Assembly (NCBI RefSeq): GCF_004217615.1
Contig: NZ_SHLD01000001.1
Location: 6,448,001-6,512,000 of the forward strand
From: Micromonospora kangleipakensis
GTDB taxonomy: Bacteria > Actinomycetota > Actinomycetes > Mycobacteriales > Micromonosporaceae
DNA: 64,000 bases
Direction of reading: 5' to 3'
Shown here piece after piece: positions 53,148 through 64,000 of the stretch. The stretch's first letter is position 1, and each line of letters starts with the position of its first letter. The position numbers were made by a program, and so were the translations under genes. The notes beneath the pieces are model-generated. The model saw only the letters and a program-made list of their open reading frames with translations. It did not search any database and was not told where the DNA came from.

Positions 53148-54221
53148 ATGACCGACACACAGCAAGGCATGAGCCGCCGCCGGATGCTCGGCACCGTCGC
53201 CGGGGCCGCCGGCGCGGTCGCCGTCGGCGCCGCCGGCTGGGCGCCCTCCGCCGCCGCGGAGGGCAACAGCCTTCTGATCCCCACCGGCAAGCGCGGCATC
53301 ATCCTGTACAGCGTCCGGGACCGGATCGGCGCCGCGCCGGACGCCTCCGGCGTGCCGTACGGCTTCGAGCGGGTGCTCGCCCGCCTCACCGAGATCGGCT
53401 ACCACGAGGTCGAGTTCGCCGGCTACACCCAGCACACCTCGATCCTGGGCCGGCAGATCACTCCGGAGGAGATCCGCAAGATCCTGGACGACAACGGACT
53501 GCGGGCGAACGGATCGCACGCCTCCATCCCGGGCACGGTCACCCCGGACACCATCGCCACGTTCGAGCGGACGCTGGACACCGCCGAGATCCTCGGCATG
53601 ACGCACATCGGCACCGGCAGCGACCCGACCGGCAGCAACTACAAGGCCGACTGGGACGCCGCCGCGGACCGGTGGAACACGTTCGGCGAGATGGCCGCCG
53701 CCCGCGGGCTGAAGCTCTACACGCACAACCACGACGCGGCGTACAACTTCCTGCTGGACAGCGGGCCGCTGGACGCACTGGGCCGGCCGACCCGGTCCTC
53801 CGGCGTCCGGAAGCTGGAGTACTTCTTCGGGCTGACCAACCCGGAGTGGGTCTGGTTCGAGATGGACATCTACTGGGCGCACGTGGCGCAGTACCGGTAC
53901 CGCAGCTACGTCGACCCGGACGGCGTGACGCAGACGAACGTCTTCGACCCGCTGGCCACGGTGGCGGCCCGGACCACGCGCTTCCCGCTGTTCCACGCCA
54001 AGGACGGCGCGTTCAACCCGGCCAACTCCGCCGGCTACGACATGGTGCCGCTCGGCGAGGGCGACATCGACTACGGCACCTTCTTCGCCAACATGGGCGC
54101 GAAGGGCTACCACAACCCGATGTGGGAGCAGGACAACGCGCCCGGCGGCACCGCCGACCCGGGCCGGTCGCTGCGCTACGCGGAGGTCAGCTACCAGCAC
54201 ATGTCGGGTCTGCGGGGCTGA
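53148..54221 (+). CDS. Tat-exported sugar phosphate isomerase/epimerase-family protein
   Basis: A 357-residue TIM-barrel protein of the xylose-isomerase-like/AP-endonuclease-2 superfamily. A twin-arginine signal (MSRRRMLGTVAGAAGAVAVG) marks it for folded export, unusual because most relatives are cytosolic. Metal-site residues are suggested by GYHEVEFAGY, LKLYTHNHDAAY, VWFEMDIYWAHVA and FPLFHAKD. It probably isomerises or epimerises a sugar or keto-sugar outside the membrane, alongside the secreted propeller protein encoded upstream. ATG 53148 is preceded by AAGGCAGCCAGGAC. Confidence 0.88.
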   Translation: MTDTQQGMSRRRMLGTVAGAAGAVAVGAAGWAPSAAAEGNSLLIPTGKRGIILYSVRDRIGAAPDASGVPYGFERVLARLTEIGYHEVEFAGYTQHTSILGRQITPEEIRKILDDNGLRANGSHASIPGTVTPDTIATFERTLDTAEILGMTHIGTGSDPTGSNYKADWDAAADRWNTFGEMAAARGLKLYTHNHDAAYNFLLDSGPLDALGRPTRSSGVRKLEYFFGLTNPEWVWFEMDIYWAHVAQYRYRSYVDPDGVTQTNVFDPLATVAARTTRFPLFHAKDGAFNPANSAGYDMVPLGEGDIDYGTFFANMGAKGYHNPMWEQDNAPGGTADPGRSLRYAEVSYQHMSGLRG

Positions 54222-54320: not shown

Positions 54321-55514
54321 GTGATCGCGATGACGTTGATCGGACCGGAGAACCCGGACCAGGCGCGGCTGCTGCGCCTGCTGCGCGACGACGGCCCCCG
54401 CTCGCGGGTCGAGCTGGCCGACGCCCTGGGACTGAACCGGACCCGGTTCGTCGCGGAGGTGGACCGGCTGACCGCCCAGGGCCTGGTGGAGACGGCCGGG
54501 CCGGCCGCGTCCCGGGGCGGTCGCCGCTCCTCCCTGCTCCGGGTCGCCGGGCAGGTCCGCTTCGGTGCGGTGGCCGTCGGCGCCGGGCGGCTCGACGTCG
54601 CGCTGACCGACGGCGAGCTGACCGTGCTCTCCCGCCTCGGCGAGCCGGTCGACGTCCGGGTCGGCCCGGAGGCGGTCGTCAGCCGCGCCGTCGAGCTGCT
54701 CGGCAAGCTCCGCGCCGAGGCGGGGCTGTCCCGGTTGACCGGGGTGGGCGTGGCCCTGCCCGCGCCGGTCGCGGTGCGGGAGGGATCCCCGGTCTCCTCG
54801 CCCGCCCTGCCGGGCTGGCACCAGTTCCCCGTCCGCGACACGATCGCCGCCGAGCTGGGCTGCCCGGTGCAGGTGGACAACGACGCCAACGTCATGGCGC
54901 TGGGTGAGCTGCACGCCGGCACCGGCCGGGCGTTCGACGACTTTCTCTACGTCAAGCTCGGCAGCGCCATCGGCTGCGGGCTGGTGCTGGGCGGCGCGCT
55001 CTACCGGGGCGCGACCAGCGGGGCCGGCGACATCGGGCATCTGCGGCTGACCGACGAGGGCCCGCTCTGCGCCTGCGGCAACACCGGCTGCGTGGAGGCG
55101 TACTGCGGGGACGCCGCCCTGGTCCGGGAGGCGCTGGCCGCCGTGCACGACGGCCGGTCGGCGGCGCTCGGCGACCGGGTGGCGGAGGCCGGGACGCTGA
55201 CCGCGACCGACGTCGCGCGGGCGGCGACGGCCGGCGATCCGACCGCGCAGACCCTGGTCCGTGGCGGCGCCCGCCGGTTGGGGCAGGTGCTGGTCGGCCT
55301 GGTCAGCTTCTTCAACCCGGCCATCGTGATCATCGGAGGCGCCGCCCCCGGCGTCGGCCCGATCCTCCTCGCCGAGATCCGCGGGGTGGTCTACCGGCGC
55401 TCCACCCCGCTCGCCACCGGCAGCATGCCGATCGTCCTGTCCGACCTGGACGACCGGGCATGCCTGGTCGGCGCGGCCCGCCTGATCAGCGACCAGGTCT
55501 TCGCGGCCCGCTGA
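54321..55514 (+). CDS. ROK-family transcriptional regulator
   Basis: A 397-residue repressor. An N-terminal winged helix (RLLRDDGPRSRVELADALGL, then NRTRFVAEVDRLTAQGLV) is joined to a sugar-kinase-like ROK domain with VQVDNDANVMALGELHAG and the structural zinc site CACGNTGCVEAYCG. Such proteins (NagC/XylR type) leave DNA on binding a sugar or sugar phosphate. The start is GTG 54321 with GGAG upstream; ATG 54330 is an alternative. It probably represses the preceding secreted-sugar genes through the repeat at 49543. Confidence 0.92.
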   Translation: MIAMTLIGPENPDQARLLRLLRDDGPRSRVELADALGLNRTRFVAEVDRLTAQGLVETAGPAASRGGRRSSLLRVAGQVRFGAVAVGAGRLDVALTDGELTVLSRLGEPVDVRVGPEAVVSRAVELLGKLRAEAGLSRLTGVGVALPAPVAVREGSPVSSPALPGWHQFPVRDTIAAELGCPVQVDNDANVMALGELHAGTGRAFDDFLYVKLGSAIGCGLVLGGALYRGATSGAGDIGHLRLTDEGPLCACGNTGCVEAYCGDAALVREALAAVHDGRSAALGDRVAEAGTLTATDVARAATAGDPTAQTLVRGGARRLGQVLVGLVSFFNPAIVIIGGAAPGVGPILLAEIRGVVYRRSTPLATGSMPIVLSDLDDRACLVGAARLISDQVFAAR

Positions 55515-55856: not shown

Positions 55857-56867
55857 TCAGTCCCGGTTGCTGCTGAACGCGGCGTCGAAGGCCGCCGCCG
55901 GGGCGTCGAAGGCGAGCCGGCGGACGAACTGGAGCGCCTCGGGCGCGCCGACCAGCCGGTCCATGCCGGCGTCCTCCCACTCGATCGAGATCGGGCCGGT
56001 GTACCCGATCGCGTTCAACGCCCGGAAGCAGTCCTCCCAGGGCACGTCCCCGTGGCCGGTGGAGACGAAGTCCCAGCCCCGGCGCAGGTCCGCCCAGGGC
56101 AGGTGGGAGGAGAGCCGGCCGCGCCGGCCGTCGCCGGTGCGGACCTTCGCGTCCTTGCAGTCGACGTGGTAGATCCGGTCGGCGAAGTCGAAGATGAAGT
56201 TGACCGGGTCCAGCTCCTGCCAGACGAAGTGCGACGGGTCCCAGTTCAGCCCGAACGCCGGGCGGTGGCGGATCGCCTCCAGGGCCCGCTTGGTGGTCCA
56301 GTAGTCGTAGGCGATCTCGCTGGGGTGCACCTCGTGGGCGAAGCGGACCCCCACCTCGTCGAAGACGTCCAGGATCGGGTTCCACCGGTCGGCGAAGTCC
56401 TGGTAGCCGCGTTCGATCATGGCCGGGGGCACCGGCGGGAACATCGCCAGGGTGTGCCAGATCGACGAGCCGGTGAAGCCGACCACGGTCTTGACGCCCA
56501 GCTTCGCCGCCGCCCGGGCGGTGTCCTTGATCTCCTCGGCGGCGCGCCGGCGTACCCCCTCGGGCTCGCCGTCGCCCCAGATCCGCGCGGGCAGGATGTC
56601 CCGGTGCCGCTCGTCGATCGGGTGGTCGCAGACCGCCTGCCCGACCAGGTGGTTGGAGATGGCGAAGACCTGCAGGTTGTGCTTGGCGAGCATGGCCCGC
56701 TTCCGGTCGACGTACGACTCGTCGGCGAGGGCCTTGTCGACCTCGAAGTGGTCGCCCCAGCAGGCGATCTCCAGGCCGTCGTAGCCCCATTCGGCGGCGA
56801 GCCGGCAGACCTCGTCGAACGGAAGGTCGGCCCACTGGCCGGTGAAGAGCGTGATGGGTCGCGCCAT
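55857..56867 (-). CDS. sugar phosphate isomerase/epimerase-family protein (cytosolic)
   Basis: A 336-residue TIM-barrel of the IolE/xylose-isomerase-like superfamily without signal peptide. Metal-ligand candidates are Glu in [14 protein letters not shown], Glu/His in [14 protein letters not shown], Asp/His in [15 protein letters not shown] and Glu in [13 protein letters not shown]. It is a plausible partner of the sugar locus on the other strand, handling the imported or oxidised sugar. ATG 56867 has GGAGAAGGA upstream. The 56868-57128 gap before it probably holds its promoter; no clear boxes were found. Confidence 0.88.
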
Positions 56868-57128
56868 TGTCCTTCTCCCCTGTCGTGATGGGGGATTCCG
56901 TAGCGGACCGGGGCGAGGGCGACCGGGTACGGGCGGCCCCGACGGAGCACCGGTGGGCGCGGGTCCGCGCCTGGGCCCGACGGGTTGCGCCTCCCGTCGG
57001 GTCACCGGCCACCTCGCGGTCGCCGCCCTCACTCTAGGTCGGCGCGGACCGTCGGGGAAGGCCCGGCGGCGGCGGGCAGGCGCACCGGTCCACGCCGGGC
57101 CGGGTCGTCCGCAGCGGCACCCGGACGG

Positions 57129-58082
57129 TCATTCGGCCTCCTCCTCGGGGGCGGGCAGCTCGGCCCGGACCAGCCAGCCGCCGCCCGGACGCGGCCCGGC
57201 GGAGAAGACGCCACCGACGGTCTCGGCCCGCTCCCGCATGCCGACCAGCCCCGGCCCGGCCCCGACCCCGCGTGCCGCGGCGGGCGCGCCCTCGTCGCGT
57301 ACCTCGATGGTGACGCCCTCGGGGTCGTAGCGCAGGCGGACCGCGACGGCCGCGCCCGGAGCGTGCTTGTGCGCGTTGGTCAGCGACTCCTGGATGATCC
57401 GGTACGCGGCCACGTCGACGGCGCTGGGCAGCGGCCGGGGCTGCCCGGCGACCGTCCAGCGCACCGGCTGCCCGGTGCTGAACCCCTCCATCAGGGCGTC
57501 GAGCCGGTTGAGGCTGGGCGCCGGTTCAGTGGGCGCGTGGGTCTCCTCCTCACGGGTCTGCTCGGCCCGGCAGGCCCGGTCCTCCAGCACCGCCACGTAT
57601 GCCCGCCGGCTGCGCACCGCGTCGCCGACGGCGACCGCGACGCCGAACCAGAGCAGCAGCACCACGACGGCCGGATCCAGCCACGGCACATCGAGGGTGA
57701 GCGTCGCCGCCGCGCCGAGCAGGAGGGCGCTCGCCGCGGTAGCGAGGAACGCGGTGCGCCGGTCGGTGCGCGTGGCGACCGTGTACGCGGCGATCGCCAC
57801 CGTGATCACGAACGGGCCGCGCACCTGGTGGGTGAGGAGCGCGAGCACCACGGCGGCCAACGTCAGGCCGAGCACCGGCAGCGGGTACCGGCGGCGGACC
57901 GCGAGCGCGGCGCAGCCGACGAACGCCAGCAGCACCGCTCCGGCGGTGAGCGGGTCCCGGGGCGGGCCGCCCGGCGGGTTCACCGGCAGCAGGCTGACCG
58001 CGAAGAGCAGCGCGGCCAGCAGCGCGTCGGCGGCGGTCGGGTAGGCCCACGCGACCCGACGCCACTCGGCGAGGCGTTCCAT
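57129..58082 (-). CDS. histidine-kinase-like protein lacking the phospho-acceptor domain
   Basis: A 317-residue membrane protein. Four to five helices (residues ~18-170) are followed by the coiled linker CRAEQTREEE. The sequence then goes directly to NRLDALMEGFSTGQPV and the HATPase_c domain (QESLTNAHKHAP N-box, VEVRDEGAP-type G1 loop, GPGLVGMRERA G2 loop). The ~70-residue HisKA_3 segment with the ARELHD-type His, always present in related NarL-type kinases, is missing although the frame is intact. No response regulator gene is adjacent. It may be a broken kinase or an ATP-binding sensor working in another way. Confidence 0.8.
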   Translation of the reverse strand: MERLAEWRRVAWAYPTAADALLAALLFAVSLLPVNPPGGPPRDPLTAGAVLLAFVGCAALAVRRRYPLPVLGLTLAAVVLALLTHQVRGPFVITVAIAAYTVATRTDRRTAFLATAASALLLGAAATLTLDVPWLDPAVVVLLLWFGVAVAVGDAVRSRRAYVAVLEDRACRAEQTREEETHAPTEPAPSLNRLDALMEGFSTGQPVRWTVAGQPRPLPSAVDVAAYRIIQESLTNAHKHAPGAAVAVRLRYDPEGVTIEVRDEGAPAAARGVGAGPGLVGMRERAETVGGVFSAGPRPGGGWLVRAELPAPEEEAE

Positions 58083-58179: not shown

Positions 58180-59247
58180 TCAGTGCCGGCGGTACAGCGC
58201 GCGGGCCGCCAGCTCCGCGAGCGCCGACCGCGCCGGCTCCGCCAGGGCCTGCCGGTCCAGCGCGGCCCGCGCCTGCGCCGCGCGTACCCGGATCATCCGC
58301 TCCACCTGCTCGCGGGCCCCGGTGGCCTCGATGACCTCGCGCAGCTCGGCCGCGCCGGCCGCGTCCAGCGCCGGGTTGCCGAAGAGGGCCCGCAGCCGGG
58401 CCGACCCCGCCGGGTCGGCGGCGGCCCGGGTCAACGCCATCAGCACCGTGGGCTTGCCCTCGCGCAGGTCGTCCACGGTGGACTTGCCGGTGACGGCCGG
58501 GTCGCCGAAGACCCCGAGCAGGTCGTCACGGAGCTGGAAGGCGTCGCCGAGCGGGTCGGCGAACTCCGCCAGCGCGTTCACCGCGGCCGGATCCGCGCCG
58601 GCCAGGGCCGCGCCCATCTGCAACGGCCGGGTCACCGTGTACCGGGCGGTCTTCATCCGGATCACGGTCAACGCCGTCGCGACCGAGCCGTCACCGACGG
58701 CCGAGACCAGGTCGAGGTACTCCCCCGCGATCACCTCGGCGCGCATCAGCGCGAAGATCGCGTACCCCCGGCGCAGCTGCTCGGCGCCGAGCCCGCAGCC
58801 GTGGAACATCTCCTGCGCCCAGGCGGCGCAGAGGTTCCCGCAGAGCAGGGCGGCGTCACGCCCGTACGCCGCCGGGTCGCCCCGCCAGGACGACCGGGCG
58901 TGCAGGTCGGCGAAGTGCCGGTGCACCGTGGGCTGGCCGCGCCGGCGGTCGCTGCCGTCCAGGATGTCGTCGTGGATCAGCGCGAAGGCGTGGAAGAGCT
59001 CCAGCGCCGCCGCCGCGCCCACGATCGATGGCCCGTCCGGCCCGCCGAAACCCCGCCAACCCCAGTAGCAGAAGAGGGGCCGCAGCCGCTTGCCGCCGGC
59101 CAGGACGAACCGGTGCAGGGCGGCGTGCACGACCCCCGGAACGGCGTCCGACCGACCCGGCCCCTGCCGGTGCAGGAACGCCGCGAGCTCCGCGTCGAAA
59201 CGCTCCCGCAGCAGGGTCGGGTCGGTCGGTACGACGGTTACGGTCAT
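58180..59247 (-). CDS. polyprenyl (geranylgeranyl-type) diphosphate synthase
   Basis: A 355-residue trans-isoprenyl diphosphate synthase that extends allylic diphosphates with isopentenyl diphosphate. The first Asp-rich motif is DDILD (residues 93-97) in LIHDDILDGSDRRRGQPTVH, the lysine/glycine motif GGKRLRP is at 51-57 and the second Asp-rich motif is QLRDDLLGVFGDP. Chain length is probably C15-C25 by resemblance to actinobacterial GGPP synthases. ATG 59247 overlaps the upstream stop (ATGA), which ties it to the ebo operon and suggests a prenylated product or carrier. Confidence 0.92.
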   Translation of the reverse strand: MTVTVVPTDPTLLRERFDAELAAFLHRQGPGRSDAVPGVVHAALHRFVLAGGKRLRPLFCYWGWRGFGGPDGPSIVGAAAALELFHAFALIHDDILDGSDRRRGQPTVHRHFADLHARSSWRGDPAAYGRDAALLCGNLCAAWAQEMFHGCGLGAEQLRRGYAIFALMRAEVIAGEYLDLVSAVGDGSVATALTVIRMKTARYTVTRPLQMGAALAGADPAAVNALAEFADPLGDAFQLRDDLLGVFGDPAVTGKSTVDDLREGKPTVLMALTRAAADPAGSARLRALFGNPALDAAGAAELREVIEATGAREQVERMIRVRAAQARAALDRQALAEPARSALAELAARALYRRH

Positions 59248-60638
59248 GGGGCCTCCCGGGCCAGTCCGGCGAGCTGGAGCAGCAGCGCCTTCACGTCGGT
59301 CGCCGCCAGCCGGTCGCGGGCGACGGACGGGTCCGAGCAGAGCAGCACCGGCCCGTCCGCCGGGTCGGCGGGCAGCCGGCCGTGCGAGCCGCGGACCGCC
59401 CGGGCGCCGGCGTCCAGCCCGACCACGCTCATCAGGTAGCGCAGGCCGAGCTTCTTGCGGGCCAGCGCCACCGCCGCCCGGCGCTTCGCGGCGGCCGGCG
59501 CCGCCGGGTCGAAGAACAACTCGGCGGGGTCGTACCCGGGCTTGCGGTGGATCTCGACCAGCCGGGCGAAGTCGGGAGCGCGGGCGTCGTCGAGCCAGTA
59601 GTAGTAGGTGAACCAGGCGTCCGGCTCGGCCACCAGCACCAGCTCGCCGGAGCGGGCGTGGTCCAGCCCGTACCCGGCCTGGCCGTCGGCGTCGAGCACC
59701 TCGGCCACCCCGGGCAGCCCGGCGCAGAGCTTCGCCACCGCCGGCACGTCGGCCGGGTCCCGGACGTAGACGTGCGCGACCTGGTGGTCGGCGACCGCGA
59801 AGGCCCGGGACGTCCACGGGTCGAGGTACTCCATGCCGGCCTGGGTGTAGACCCGCAGCAGCCCCTCGGCGCGCAGCAGCCGGTTGACGTCCACCGGCCG
59901 GGAGACGTCGGTGATGCCGTACTCCGACAGCGCCACCACCGTGGCGTCCTTCGCCCGGGCGGCGTCCAGCAGCGGGGCGAGCACCGCGTCCAGCTCGGCC
60001 GCCGCCGCGGCGGCCCGCGGCGAGTTCGGGCCGAAGCGTTGCAGGTCGTAGTCCAGGTGCGGCACGTAGACCAGGGTCAGGTCCGGCGCGTGGTCGGCCA
60101 GGATCCGCTCGGCGGCCCGGCAGATCCACCGGGACGAGGGCAGCCCCGCGCCCGGCCCCCAGTAGGTGAAGAGCGGGAAGGTGCCGAGCCCGTCGGTGAG
60201 CACGTCGTGCAGCTCCGGCGGGTCGGTCCAGCAGTCCGGCTCCTTGCGGCCGTCGGCGTGGTAGACCGGCCGGGGGGTGACCGTCCAGTCCACGTCGGCG
60301 CCCATCGCGTACCACCAGCAGACGTTCGCCACCGTATAGCCGGGCTCCACCCGGCGGGCCGCCTGCCAGAGCTTCTCCCCGCCGACCAGCGCGTGGTGCT
60401 GCCGCCACAGCAGCACCTCGCCGAGGTCCCGGAAGTACCAGCCGTTGCCGACGATCCCGTGCCCCGACGGTGGCTCGCCGGTGAGGAAGGTGGACTGCAC
60501 CGAGCAGGTCACGGCGGGCAGCACGGTGCCCAGCTCGGCGGCGAAGCCGGCCTCGGCGACCGCGCGCAGCCGGGGCATGTGCGCCAGCAGGCGCGGGGTC
60601 AGCCCGACCACGTCGAGGACCACCAGCCGCCGGCTCAC
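59244..60638 (-). CDS. eboF: alkaline phosphatase/nucleotide pyrophosphatase-family protein (EboF-like)
   Basis: A 464-residue enzyme of the alkaline-phosphatase superfamily, NPP branch. Readable metal-site and nucleophile elements are Asp in VVLDVVGLTP, Thr in TCSVQSTFLTGEPPSGHGI, LVYVPHLDYDLQRFGPNS, LSEYGITDVSRPVDVNRLL and ADHQVAHVYV. No signal peptide, so it should hydrolyse a phosphate or phosphodiester in the cytosol. Position between EboE and a prenyl synthase identifies it as the EboF-type member of the cluster. The start is GTG 60638, overlapping the eboE stop. Confidence 0.85.
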   Translation of the reverse strand: MSRRLVVLDVVGLTPRLLAHMPRLRAVAEAGFAAELGTVLPAVTCSVQSTFLTGEPPSGHGIVGNGWYFRDLGEVLLWRQHHALVGGEKLWQAARRVEPGYTVANVCWWYAMGADVDWTVTPRPVYHADGRKEPDCWTDPPELHDVLTDGLGTFPLFTYWGPGAGLPSSRWICRAAERILADHAPDLTLVYVPHLDYDLQRFGPNSPRAAAAAAELDAVLAPLLDAARAKDATVVALSEYGITDVSRPVDVNRLLRAEGLLRVYTQAGMEYLDPWTSRAFAVADHQVAHVYVRDPADVPAVAKLCAGLPGVAEVLDADGQAGYGLDHARSGELVLVAEPDAWFTYYYWLDDARAPDFARLVEIHRKPGYDPAELFFDPAAPAAAKRRAAVALARKKLGLRYLMSVVGLDAGARAVRGSHGRLPADPADGPVLLCSDPSVARDRLAATDVKALLLQLAGLAREAP

Positions 60639-61834
60639 CGCCGTACCCCCGTCCCGGCCGGGGTCGCGGCGGCGAGGCCGACCGCGACCAGCTCGTCGCG
60701 GGCGAAGGCCAGCTCGGCGGCGATCCCGGCGGCCAGCTCCGCGTCGGTGCGCGGCCGCCGCGCCGCCGGCAGCACCCCCCAGGTGTACGTCTCGACGTCG
60801 AGGTGGTCGCAGCCGGCGGCGGGGCCGGCGAAGAGCCCGGCGAGGGCGGCCCGCAGCACCGGCAGGGTGGAGCGCAGCGGCGGCTCCGGCGGCGCGTGCA
60901 GCGGCACGTGGTAGTGCACCCGCCACGGCCCGGGCAGCCGCGCGTCGAGGGCGGCGTCCAGGTCGTCGGCCGCGTACGCCGGGTCGGCCGGGTCGGCGGC
61001 GGACGCGCAGCCGGCGGCCCGGGTCTGGTGCAGGAAGCGGGGCTCGACCCAGCGGCGCAGCGCCTCGGTCGACCCGGCCGGGTCGGTCGCCTCGACGGCG
61101 GCGGAGACCTGCACCTTGACCACCGGCAGCCCGGCCGACTCCAGCCGGGCCAGCGCCTCGACCGGCTCCTCCCAGGCGCACGCGAGGTGCGCGAGATCGA
61201 GGCAGATCCCGAGCCGGTCGGTATCCATGGCTGACAATAGCGCGCCGGCCTGTCCCGTGGACTCCACAATGCACCCCGGTTCCGGTTCGAAGCCGACCCG
61301 GATCGGCCGGTCGGTCTCCCGCTCGACCGCGGCGAGTCCGGTCGCCAGTTCGGCGAGCCGCCGCCGGGCCGCCGCCGCGCGGTGGGCGTCCCACGGCTCC
61401 CGCCAGGCCAGCGGCAGGGTGGAGACCGAGCCCCGGGCCGCGTCGTCGGGGAGCAGGTCGGCCAGCACCCGGGCCAGGTGCAGCGTGTACGCCAGCCGGT
61501 CGCCGGTGGTCCAGTCCGGGTGGTAGACCGCACCCTTGACGACCGGCGCCTGGAACGACGCGTACGGGAAGCCGTTGAGGGTGACCACCTCCAGCCCGCG
61601 TACGGTCAGCTCGGTCCGCAGCCGACGGCGCAGCGCCGGGTCGGCGGCCAGCTCGGCCGCGACCGGGGCGGCCAGCCAGAGCCCGAGGCCGAGCAGGTCG
61701 GCGTCGAGGGCCCGGCGGACCGGCACGGCGTAGCGGTCGAGCTGGGCGAGGATGCCAGCCAGGTCCTCCGCGGGGTGGACGTTGGTGCAGTAGCCGAGGT
61801 GGACGGTGCTGCCGTCGGCGTGGCGGAGCCGCAT
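60635..61834 (-). CDS. eboE: metabolite traffic protein EboE
   Basis: A 399-residue TIM-barrel protein. The opening LGYCTNVHPAEDLAGILAQL is characteristic of EboE, followed by TLNGFPYASFQAPVVKGAVY and the sugar-isomerase-like GFEPEPGCIVESTGQ and GICLDLAHLACAWEEP. EboE belongs to the ebo cluster, which in the cyanobacterium Nostoc punctiforme is needed to bring a scytonemin precursor to the periplasm; its exact reaction is unknown. ATG 61834 overlaps the upstream stop (TGATG); GTG 61837 is also possible. Confidence 0.9.
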   Translation of the reverse strand: MRLRHADGSTVHLGYCTNVHPAEDLAGILAQLDRYAVPVRRALDADLLGLGLWLAAPVAAELAADPALRRRLRTELTVRGLEVVTLNGFPYASFQAPVVKGAVYHPDWTTGDRLAYTLHLARVLADLLPDDAARGSVSTLPLAWREPWDAHRAAAARRRLAELATGLAAVERETDRPIRVGFEPEPGCIVESTGQAGALLSAMDTDRLGICLDLAHLACAWEEPVEALARLESAGLPVVKVQVSAAVEATDPAGSTEALRRWVEPRFLHQTRAAGCASAADPADPAYAADDLDAALDARLPGPWRVHYHVPLHAPPEPPLRSTLPVLRAALAGLFAGPAAGCDHLDVETYTWGVLPAARRPRTDAELAAGIAAELAFARDELVAVGLAAATPAGTGVRR

Positions 61835-62685
61835 CACTCGCCCCCGCGCAGGATGGAGTTGCCGGCGAAGGTGGCGGCGGGCGCGTCCAGGTCGCTGAGG
61901 TCGAGCCGGCCGGACTGGCCGTAGAACTCCGCCGGGTTGCGCCAGAGCACCCGGTCGACGTCGTCGTCGGTGAAGCCGGCGAGCAGCATCGCCTCGCCGG
62001 TGGCCCGGGTCAGCAGCGGGTCGGAGCGCCCCCAGTCGGCCGCCGAGTTCACCAGCATCCGCTCGGTCCCGTACGTCCGCAGCAGCTCGACCATCCGCGG
62101 TGGCGTCATCTTGGTGTCCGGGTAGATGGAGAAGCCCAGCCAGCAGCCGGTGTCCCGGACCAGCTTCACGGTGACCTCGTTGAGGTGGTCGACGAGCACC
62201 CGCCCCGGCTCGATGCCCGACTCGGCGACCACCGCGAGGCTCCGCTCGACGCCCCGCGCCTTGTCCCGGTGCGGGGTGTGCACCAGGGCGGGCAGGTCGT
62301 GGGCGACGGCCAGGGCGAGCTGGCCGGCGAACGCGGCGTCCTCGGCCGGGGTCATCGAGTCGTAGCCGATCTCGCCGACCGCCACCACGCCGTCCTTGTC
62401 CAGGTAGCGCGGGAGCAGGTCGAGCACCGGGTGGCAGCGCGGGTCGTTGGCCTCCTTGGGGTTGAGCGCGACGGTGGCGTGGTGCCGGACGCCGAACTGC
62501 CCGGCCCGGAACGGCTCCCAGCCGATCAGCGAGTCGAAGTAGTCGACGAACGTGGCGGCGCTGGTGCGGGGCTGACCCAGCCAGAACGCCGGCTCCACCA
62601 CCGCGCGCACCCCGGCGGCGGCCATCCGCTCGTAGTCGTCGGTGGTCCGTGAGGTCATGTGGATGTGCGGGTCGAAGATGCGCAT
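61834..62685 (-). CDS. eboB: TatD-like metal-dependent hydrolase (EboB-like)
   Basis: A 283-residue amidohydrolase-fold protein. The zinc motif DPHIHM (residues 5-10) opens the barrel. Further candidates are Glu in VVAVGEIGYDSMTP, His in ALVHTPHRDKARGV, VLVDHLNEVTVKLV and Asp in NSAADWGRSDPL. TatD relatives are nucleases or amidohydrolases; within the ebo cluster this is the EboB-type member. ATG 62685 overlaps the eboA stop (TGATG). The substrate is unknown. Confidence 0.85.
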   Translation of the reverse strand: MRIFDPHIHMTSRTTDDYERMAAAGVRAVVEPAFWLGQPRTSAATFVDYFDSLIGWEPFRAGQFGVRHHATVALNPKEANDPRCHPVLDLLPRYLDKDGVVAVGEIGYDSMTPAEDAAFAGQLALAVAHDLPALVHTPHRDKARGVERSLAVVAESGIEPGRVLVDHLNEVTVKLVRDTGCWLGFSIYPDTKMTPPRMVELLRTYGTERMLVNSAADWGRSDPLLTRATGEAMLLAGFTDDDVDRVLWRNPAEFYGQSGRLDLSDLDAPAATFAGNSILRGGE

Positions 62686-63308
62686 CACGCCTCCCTGGCG
62701 GTGGTCAGGTCCGAGCCGGCGCCGAGCCGGTCGAGCAGGTCGGTGGCGTCGGCGGGCATGGTGCGGCCGGCCGCGTGCCGCTCGGCGGCCAGCGCGGCCA
62801 GCATCGCGGCCAGCTCCCCGTCGGCCCGGCCGTCGAGGTCGTCCACGACCGCCAGCGGTACGCCGGTGAAGACGCACTTGAGCACCGCCTGCCGCCAGGC
62901 CGCCTGCTCCAGGTGCCGGGCGTACGGGCCGAGGGCGGCGGCGACCAGCCGGGTGTCGTTGGTGCGGATGGCGTCGTGCAGCAGCGGTACGCAGGCCGCG
63001 CCGATCGGCAGCAGCGGCAGCGCCCGCAGCACGGCCCGCTTCTCGGCCGCGTCGCCGTGCCGGTAGAGGGTCTCCGCCGTCGTCGCCGCGTGGTCGACGG
63101 GGAGCGCGGTGAGCAGCAGCGCCCGGGCGGCCTCGTCGACGGTCCAGCCGGGCGGGTCGGGCAGCGGTCCCCGCCCGCAGCGCCGCGCGGCGGCGGGGAA
63201 GAGCCGGGCGATCGCCGCGGGTTCGGTCGCGACGCGGCGCAGCGCCGCGTCCAGCCACCGTGGATCGGGTACGCCCCGCAGCGCGGCGCGCAGTCGGTCG
63301 GGTGTCAT
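62685..63308 (-). CDS. eboA: EboA domain-containing protein
   Basis: A 207-residue all-helical protein with the EboA pattern: WTVDEAARALLLTALP, ETLYRHGDAAEKRAVLRALP and TNDTRLVAAALGPYARHLEQ, then AAWRQAVLKCVFTGVPL. The helix hairpins look HEAT-like. It has no enzyme motif and may be a scaffold for the ebo proteins; no function is known for the family. ATG 63308 has AGGGGAGA upstream and follows the isomerase stop by 32 bases. Confidence 0.85.
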   Translation of the reverse strand: MTPDRLRAALRGVPDPRWLDAALRRVATEPAAIARLFPAAARRCGRGPLPDPPGWTVDEAARALLLTALPVDHAATTAETLYRHGDAAEKRAVLRALPLLPIGAACVPLLHDAIRTNDTRLVAAALGPYARHLEQAAWRQAVLKCVFTGVPLAVVDDLDGRADGELAAMLAALAAERHAAGRTMPADATDLLDRLGAGSDLTTAREA

Positions 63309-63340
63309 GCCGTCTCCCCTCTGAGCCGGGTGGCAGGTGC

Positions 63341-64000
63341 TCAGCCACCGCCTTTGCTCTGCTGCACCCCACGCAACAGCGGTTGTCCGGCTACCGGACG
63401 TGGGGTGTTGCCGTCGCTGCAGCAGAGCAAAGGGGCCGAGTCGCTGGTCCCGCCCGGCGCGGGACCGGCCGGGCCGGACGCGCGGACCGGCGGGGCCGCG
63501 GCGTCGGCCGTCCGGGCGGCGGCGCGGAGGAACTCGATCGAGCGGGCGGCCACGGTCGGCGCGGCGTGCGAGTGCCGGGGCAGCTCCACCGCGACCAGGC
63601 CGTGGTAGCCGGCGTCGGCGAGGGCGCGCAGCACCGGCGGAAAGTCGATCTCGCCGGTGCCGAACTCCAGGTGCTCGTGCACGCCCCGGCGCATGTCGTC
63701 GATCTGCACGTTGACCAGGTGGTCGGCGACCGCTGCCACGCAGTCCGGCACCGGTGCCGGCTCCAGGCAGCGACAGTGTCCGATGTCGAGGGTGAGGCCG
63801 AACCCGGGTGGCGCGCCGAGCGCGGCGCGCAGCCGCCGCCAGCCGGCGATCTCCTCGACCAGCATCCCCGGCTCCGGCTCGAAGCCGAACGGCACGCCCG
63901 CGGCCTCCGCGTCGGCGCAGACGGTGGCGCAGCCGGCCACCAGCCGGTCCCACGCGACGGCAACCGGGACCTCCGGTGGGCGTACCCCGGCCCAGCACGA
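63341..64000 (-). CDS. sugar phosphate isomerase/epimerase-family protein, 5' end outside window
   Basis: About 219 codons of a TIM-barrel protein, open to the window edge. Ligand-region motifs are VPFGFEPEPGMLVEE, FGLTLDIGHCRCLEP, HLVNVQIDDMRRG and YHGLVAVELPRHSHAAP. The conserved domain ends near FLRAAAR; the following ~60 residues are not conserved and are encoded across the nested palindrome at 63352-63432. It precedes eboA on the same strand and is probably the upstream part of the ebo operon. The usual eboC (UbiA-type prenyltransferase) and eboD genes are not seen here and may lie beyond the edge. Confidence 0.82.
   Translation of the reverse strand, partial: SCWAGVRPPEVPVAVAWDRLVAGCATVCADAEAAGVPFGFEPEPGMLVEEIAGWRRLRAALGAPPGFGLTLDIGHCRCLEPAPVPDCVAAVADHLVNVQIDDMRRGVHEHLEFGTGEIDFPPVLRALADAGYHGLVAVELPRHSHAAPTVAARSIEFLRAAARTADAAAPPVRASGPAGPAPGGTSDSAPLLCCSDGNTPRPVAGQPLLRGVQQSKGGG
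63352..63432. repeat. nested 81-bp palindromic element
   Basis: Three concentric perfect stems: CTTTGCTCTGCTGC (63352-63365) with its complement (63419-63432), CACCCCACG (63365-63373) with CGTGGGGTG (63399-63407), and GTCCGG/CCGGAC (63385-63399) over a CTA loop. It lies within the extended end of the isomerase frame, just upstream of eboA. It may be a dispersed repeat element that extended the gene, or an attenuator between the two genes. Confidence 0.75.

Follow-up and report, generated by a model that had tools for sequence, protein, structure and literature searches.

We analysed a 64,000-nucleotide stretch of the Micromonospora kangleipakensis genome (the window; bases 6448001-6512000 of a genome assembled as a single contig of 7.27 Mb), where an operon of ebo genes (locus L005) is cut through by the window edge. 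The operon comprises eight mostly overlapping genes on the - strand. They encode, in order, a myo-inositol phosphate synthase (MIPS)-like cyclase, an EboC-type UbiA prenyltransferase, a TIM-barrel protein that we call TIM1, EboA, EboB, EboE, an EboF-type protein and a polyprenyl diphosphate synthase. As argued below, the MIPS-like cyclase and the extra TIM barrel probably take the place of EboD in this actinomycete form of the cluster. Gene limits and overlaps were verified by translation, and the genes are as follows (all on the - strand, in window positions):

65294-66454 (beyond the window), -, MIPS-like cyclase, the operon's first gene; PF07994 168 bits, PF01658 101 bits
64393-65310 (beyond the window), -, EboC-type UbiA prenyltransferase; NF045897, PF01040
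64396-63341 (start beyond the window; 3' part 63341..64000 inside), -, TIM1, TIM-barrel protein resembling sugar-phosphate isomerases/epimerases; PF01261
62685-63308, -, eboA, 207 aa; NF035938
61834-62685, -, eboB, TatD-like metallo-hydrolase, 283 aa; PF01026 and its place in the EboB tree
60635-61834, -, eboE, xylose-isomerase-like TIM barrel, 399 aa; NF035939
59244-60638, -, eboF-type gene, alkaline-phosphatase superfamily with an altered metal site; PF01663; likely GTG start within GTGA
58180-59247, -, polyprenyl (short-chain) diphosphate synthase, 355 aa; PF00348

An earlier note, made from the window alone, had described an ebo-type cluster of five genes overlapping by 1-4 bases, with an isomerase-like gene before them. 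Translation confirmed this layout, with overlaps of 1 nt for EboA/EboB and EboB/EboE and of 4 nt for EboE/EboF and EboF/synthase. Further upstream, MIPS and EboC overlap by 17 nt and EboC and TIM1 by 4 nt; the spacer between TIM1 and eboA is 32 nt. The profile searches that the note proposed gave matches for both proteins: EboA reached 162 bits with the domain model NF035938 (cut-off 50) and EboE 401.7 bits with NF035939 (cut-off 250). The narrower EboA family model NF035937 gave 86 bits and did not reach its cut-off of 320. The nearest EboA is 96% identical (Micromonospora sp. 4G57) and the next 95%, and close homologues are mostly named EboA domain-containing protein. EboB matched TatD (PF01026, 39.3 bits, cut-off 27) and the EboF-type protein matched PF01663 (207 bits, cut-off 23); they are, respectively, 42% and 56% identical to their counterparts in an actinomycete EboD-type cluster (L019). 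The note had also pointed upstream of position 64000 for eboC and eboD. An EboC-type gene indeed lies just past the window, but EboD is absent and MIPS stands in its place.

Among solved structures, the MIPS-like protein matches the archaeal-type mIPS of A. fulgidus (1u1i) with 236 bits. In all 17 ebo-linked sequences, the mIPS residues N255, K274, K278, K306 and K367 (A. fulgidus numbering) are invariant; the aligned frame of one row reported with an in-frame TGA (G051) contains all of them. N255, K278 and K367 are positions at which mutant chains among the structure matches differ, and K274 and K306 belong to the active site as well. The protein thus shares its sequence family and five checked residues with A. 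fulgidus mIPS, whereas it represents a divergent subfamily tied to ebo genes. It is not a member of the mycothiol-type INO1 model TIGR03450 (30.8 bits against a cut-off of 638). A second PF01658 gene elsewhere in the genome reads as mycothiol-type INO1, and the MIPS-like gene is therefore not the housekeeping INO1. When 396 Actinomycetota genomes were searched, 79 had a match at 1e-20. The matches of at least 50% identity numbered 17 and were precisely the ebo-linked copies; the best remaining match was 44% identical.

In a tree of 41 MIPS rows, 22 ebo-linked rows and four Micromonospora rows from other clusters were separated from 15 other actinobacterial MIPS-like rows with support of 100/100, a split at which the tool gave a long-branch warning. 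The four rows from other clusters (L122-L125) nest inside the ebo-MIPS clade, and none of these loci had an ebo match. One of them, L124, carries genes for an inositol monophosphatase, a DegT aminotransferase, a PLP decarboxylase, AMP-binding and carrier-domain proteins and an acyl-CoA dehydrogenase, and looks like an aminocyclitol gene cluster. Judged by these neighbours, the subfamily also appears to have been recruited to a setting that suits a cyclitol phosphate. A third kind of MIPS-like protein (about 44% identical) occurs in Micromonospora at L131 and L132, and there a gene resembling TIM1 (47-50%) lies at a distance of about 5 kb.

We found an EboE match in 19 of the 396 Actinomycetota genomes, 18 of them above the cut-off. 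From these genomes we took 20 loci (19 stretches plus L005), chosen by EboE alone. The order MIPS-C-TIM-A-B-E-F recurs in 17 of the 20 loci, corresponding to 17 of the 19 genomes and seven family labels; an order shared in this way, as read from the gene arrangement, is more than chance. The exceptions are the second cluster of G128 (L016), which has no MIPS; L033 (G279), which has no adjacent MIPS, EboE in two pieces and a 44% identical MIPS on another contig; and L019 (G381), an EboD cluster.

No EboD was found in the L005 locus or genome-wide. The best genome match to an EboD query, at 114 bits, was a dehydroquinate (DHQ) synthase directly before an apparent type II dehydroquinase, and is AroB by virtue of that neighbour. 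The DHQ-synthase profile gave one strong genome match and a second at 21.6, under the cut-off of 24.2. Since the sole strong match is AroB, we rejected the idea of an EboD hidden at another place in this genome. Only one of the 19 EboE-bearing genomes (G381) contains EboD; the others gave at most 136 bits over part of the protein, to be set beside 283-347 bits for EboD genes of other phyla, the latter obtained in another program. One genome, G318 (82% complete), gave no EboD match whatever.

The same division extended beyond this sample. We scanned genomes of many phyla with an EboB alignment and took the best 80 of 585 confirmed places, and we added 20 genus loci chosen as special cases and eight plasmid records chosen via MIPS or EboD matches. 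Loci with both EboB and EboE by tblastn were counted. All 20 loci of the phylum sample qualified (MIPS 17, EboD 1, neither 2), as did 28 of the best 80 of 585 scan places (MIPS 0, EboD 19, neither 9), 6 of the 20 genus cases (MIPS 5, neither 1) and 7 of the 8 plasmids (MIPS 3, EboD 4). Together these make 61 ebo loci, the scan part being the best 80 of 585, with MIPS in 25, EboD in 24, neither in 12 and both in none. Four of the loci with neither (L061, L072, L098 and L115) come from contigs 4-15 kb long, where absence means little. TIM1 goes with MIPS: all 25 MIPS loci matched it, none of the 24 EboD loci did, and 2 of the 12 with neither had it. The corresponding figures for EboA are 25 of 25, 3 of 24 and 3 of 12.

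To place the two cluster types on a common protein, we used an EboB tree of 55 rows, with a midpoint root serving as a drawing aid only. Of its two deep halves, the first contains 21 EboD rows plus 5 ungrouped ones. In the second are all 22 MIPS rows together with four EboD rows (Mycetohabitans, Azospirillum, Aureibacter and Gloeothece) and 3 ungrouped rows. On this tree the MIPS type appears to form a single lineage, and EboD was probably replaced once. As EboD spans the two halves and MIPS is confined to one of them, replacement of EboD is the simpler story.

The EboC-type protein scored 359.5 bits with the SCO3242-family model NF045897 (cut-off 260) and 70 with UbiA PF01040 (cut-off 34), and remained below the cut-off of the EboC equivalog NF035940 (122 bits against 250). 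NF045897 and NF035940 were the top two models for all five UbiA proteins scanned, which came from both cluster types. The first Asp motif, NDxxDxxxD, is present in 57 of 57 EboC-type sequences, a count that excludes sequences of 230 residues or fewer. TIM1 matched PF01261 with 125.6 bits and reached 44.7 with the hydroxypyruvate isomerase model TIGR03234, below its cut-off of 353. EboA has a predicted model that is all-helical (pLDDT 81, from an alignment of 30 close Micromonospora sequences); a structure search with it returned middling matches to helical-repeat proteins and no enzyme lead.

The operon's last gene had been taken by the earlier note as a coupled part of the cluster. The synthase scored 162 bits with PF00348 (cut-off 27), and its top PDB match, 8f8f with 242 bits, is a (2E,6E)-farnesyl diphosphate synthase. 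We followed it through 151 Micromonospora genomes, counting MIPS at 69% identity or more and the synthase at 71% or more. Each was found in 123 genomes (MIPS in two pieces in three of them). They co-occur in 113, share a contig in 102 and lie no more than 12 kb apart on the same strand in 101; the median gap of 6.07 kb is the space of six intervening genes. The proposed linkage is thus real within the genus, in most of whose genomes the synthase gene closes the operon. Ten further genomes have MIPS without the synthase, and the four retrieved (L126-L129) carry a full ebo set and no synthase match. Another ten have the synthase without MIPS, of which eight were retrieved. In two of these (L114 and L120), MIPS, EboC, TIM1, EboE and EboF are jointly gone, which leaves EboA and EboB beside the synthase; in these two species the eboA-eboB pair sits between transporter genes and the synthase. 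In L116, L117 and L119, ebo genes are reduced to fragments at most, L118 and L121 have no ebo match, and L115 is truncated where its contig ends. A further locus, L130, contains MIPS and the synthase together with part of EboC. Across the phylum sample, the synthase lies near 4 of 17 MIPS-type loci: L005 and L027, both from Micromonospora, and L015 and L032, where it occupies other positions. We therefore rejected it as a core ebo gene, and the coupling stands as a genus-level addition, useful and not essential; it possibly has another use.

Taken together, the sequence comparisons make it fairly probable that, in the actinomycete form of ebo, a MIPS-like cyclase and an extra TIM barrel replace EboD, and that the product is a membrane-associated prenylated cyclitol derived from an inositol phosphate. 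The EboD superfamily and MIPS perform analogous chemistry, the ring closure of a sugar phosphate. The MIPS-like enzyme would form a cyclitol phosphate from glucose 6-phosphate, in the simplest case 1L-myo-inositol 1-phosphate, and TIM1 and EboE could isomerise, epimerise or dehydrate the ring. EboC, a membrane enzyme, would then transfer a C15-C20 prenyl group to it, the donor in Micromonospora coming from the coupled synthase. EboB and EboF might carry out tailoring, and EboA may be a scaffold, given the helix stack of its predicted model; the sequence of these steps is a guess. An apparent type 2 isopentenyl diphosphate isomerase gene (12622-13662 of L019, identified by eye), directly after the EboD-type cluster of that locus, also speaks for a prenylated product. 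A prenylated compound with a sugar or cyclitol head was what the earlier note had in mind; the MIPS-like gene past the window supports that idea and sharpens it.

The idea of such a product was not new to the literature. The ebo genes were named in 2016, when an isoprenoid-cyclitol product was already proposed (PMC5133447), and the prenylated-cyclitol idea has been repeated since (PMC6092422). The 2016 paper also describes actinobacterial EboA that carries a fused xylose-isomerase-like portion; its main text never uses the word 'inositol'. Ebo genes have been noted in Saccharomonospora (PMC9235831), and in Nostoc an experimental phenotype indicates that exporting a precursor into the periplasm requires ebo (PMC6282210). 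Among the open-access papers listed in our searches, we found no link between MIPS and ebo and no prenylated inositol in this setting, although subscription papers or preprints could hold them; the four that name both EboC and EboE nowhere mention 'inositol', and neither name was found paired with it.

Several results weigh against this proposal. MIPS and EboD rows are separated by a single change on the EboB tree, with support of 77/99, and by a single change in 80% of the bootstrap trees. With replacement probably a single event, the 25/24/0 split does not amount to 25 independent observations. Moreover, 13 of the 61 loci came from sets chosen partly by the presence or absence of MIPS, the synthase or EboD. 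Two ebo loci, L016 and L033, have no MIPS next to them, and the synthase is neither constant in the ebo pathway nor restricted to it. The EboF-type protein is also at odds with its family. NPP enzymes have six metal ligands, D54, D210, H214, D257, H258 and H363, and in the window's protein D54/H214/D257/H258 read V/Q/E/Y. Among 56 EboF proteins from MIPS- and EboD-type clusters (rows of 380 residues or fewer excluded), position 54 is V in 50, P in 4, A in 1 and a gap in 1; H214 is Q in all 56; D257 is E in 55 and D in 1; and H258 is Y in 55 and F in 1. D210 is kept in 56 and H363 in 55, with one gap. With most of the ligands replaced, the name phosphodiesterase is doubtful for EboF. In EboC, the second DxxxD motif of UbiA prenyltransferases is missing; by eye, the expected stretch reads approximately [HY]xxx[LVI][TS]xx[AS][RK]xE in most of the 57 sequences. 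Lastly, an EboC homologue, Ubi-297, farnesylates quinoline acids in vitro, namely 8-hydroxyquinoline-2-carboxylic acid and quinaldic acid (PMC9235831).

This last activity would fit a different arrangement, in which the EboC acceptor is aromatic, the cluster is a trafficking module, and the MIPS-like protein and TIM1 provide a polar head or a cofactor that is to be exported, the prenylated molecule not being a cyclitol. The MIPS-type cluster of Streptomyces camelliae, which adjoins genes annotated as ScyD/ScyE family, aromatic prenyltransferase and multicopper oxidase, is in keeping with it. However, these three neighbours matched none of the 127 other loci searched, and the acceptors of the Ubi-297 assay had been picked by anticipation (PMC9235831). 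In addition, by their profiles none of the seven constant genes falls in a family known to supply aromatic precursors, and both the EboD superfamily and MIPS make carbocycles. We consider an aromatic acceptor unlikely, albeit worth keeping in mind. A cyclitol of another kind is less probable still. The MIPS-like enzyme could make, for instance, a five-membered ring, giving a cyclopentitol head; it is a homologue of the five-membered-cyclitol-phosphate synthase 6k96, and its subfamily recurs in the aminocyclitol-like cluster. Nevertheless, 6k96 reached 41 bits against 236 for 1u1i, and the checked mIPS residues are invariant, so that we hold this variant to be improbable. That the MIPS-like protein is a passenger or spare inositol supplier, with ebo working without it and EboD simply lost, seems very improbable to us: L016 and L033 would suit such a view, but MIPS immediately precedes EboC in 17 of the 20 phylum loci, across seven family labels, disappears jointly with EboC, TIM1, EboE and EboF in L114 and L120, and coexists with a mycothiol-type INO1 already in the genome.

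A prenylated cyclitol made from inositol phosphate, our preferred reading, may be taken one step further. The actinomycete product could be a polyprenyl-cyclitol membrane lipid from inositol 1-phosphate, with other phyla making a related lipid via EboD and a different sugar phosphate, and the lipid could act as a carrier or membrane partner for the export of, for example, the scytonemin monomer. We offer this extension as a speculation that is rather unlikely as a whole; if true, it would unite the biosynthetic and transport views of ebo. In the MIPS variant, the step of EboD falls to a biochemically well-understood family, which names inositol 1-phosphate as a testable first intermediate in culturable actinomycetes, and natural deletion strains are available for comparison.

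Comparison with known systems bears on the novelty of this form. The ebo operon ABCDEF of eustigmatophyte plastids, Bacteroidetes and Cyanobacteria likewise has EboA, EboB, EboE, EboF and an EboC-type UbiA in a tight operon, whereas the actinomycete operon lacks EboD, contains a MIPS-like gene and a second TIM barrel, follows the order M-C-T-A-B-E-F and, in Micromonospora, has gained the synthase. We also found EboD-type clusters with no EboA match (among them Herpetosiphon L035, Deinococcus L137 and Actinomycetota L019; 'EboG-type' in PMC5133447). These have EboB, EboE, EboC and EboF homologues in common with the present operon, but possess EboD, give no TIM1 match and fall in the other deep half of the EboB tree. 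In the BE-40644 pathway of Actinoplanes (PMC5133447, section 3.7), a cyclase and a UbiA-family enzyme likewise give a hybrid isoprenoid-cyclitol (a cyclitol plus farnesyl), although its UbiA member is not EboC. Finally, S. coelicolor SCO3243 is listed as myo-inositol phosphate synthase and SCO3242 as a putative transferase within the range of the calcium-dependent antibiotic (CDA) cluster, without being tied to ebo in the accessible text (PMC3610822). Their likeness to the genes described here is one of names and family label, NCBIfam calling the EboC-type protein the SCO3242 family; the variant may remove genes such as this pair from the CDA antibiotic cluster, in whose range they have so far been placed.

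Upstream of MIPS, about 310 nt separate it from a Gfo/Idh/MocA oxidoreductase gene, followed by an apparent sugar ABC transporter and a ROK regulator. No sigma-70-type promoter was seen in the 401 bases scanned before MIPS, which carries little weight for an actinomycete. The ROK, sugar ABC transporter and Gfo-Idh genes were rejected as pathway genes, as they persist where ebo genes have been lost (L114, L116, L117, L119 and L120); Gfo-Idh and binding-protein matches occur in 5 of 25 MIPS-type loci. Regular neighbours of scyD/E-type, aromatic prenyltransferase and multicopper oxidase kinds were also rejected, as they occur in S. camelliae only (1 of 128 loci). There, on a plasmid (L134), the ScyD/ScyE gene directly precedes the MIPS-type cluster and the other two follow it.

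On the other side of the operon, the window contains a TIM-barrel gene (53148-54221, +; PF01261), a ROK regulator gene (54321-55514, +), a frame within 55857-57032 (-) that is sugar isomerase-like by eye, and a histidine-kinase-like gene (57129-58082, -). Among the plasmids, EboD-type genes of Mycetohabitans, Gloeothece and Aureibacter (L138, L139 and L140; three phyla) lie near the same two genes, one encoding a hypothetical protein of roughly 600 aa and the other a ferritin-like protein (matches 37-41% identical).

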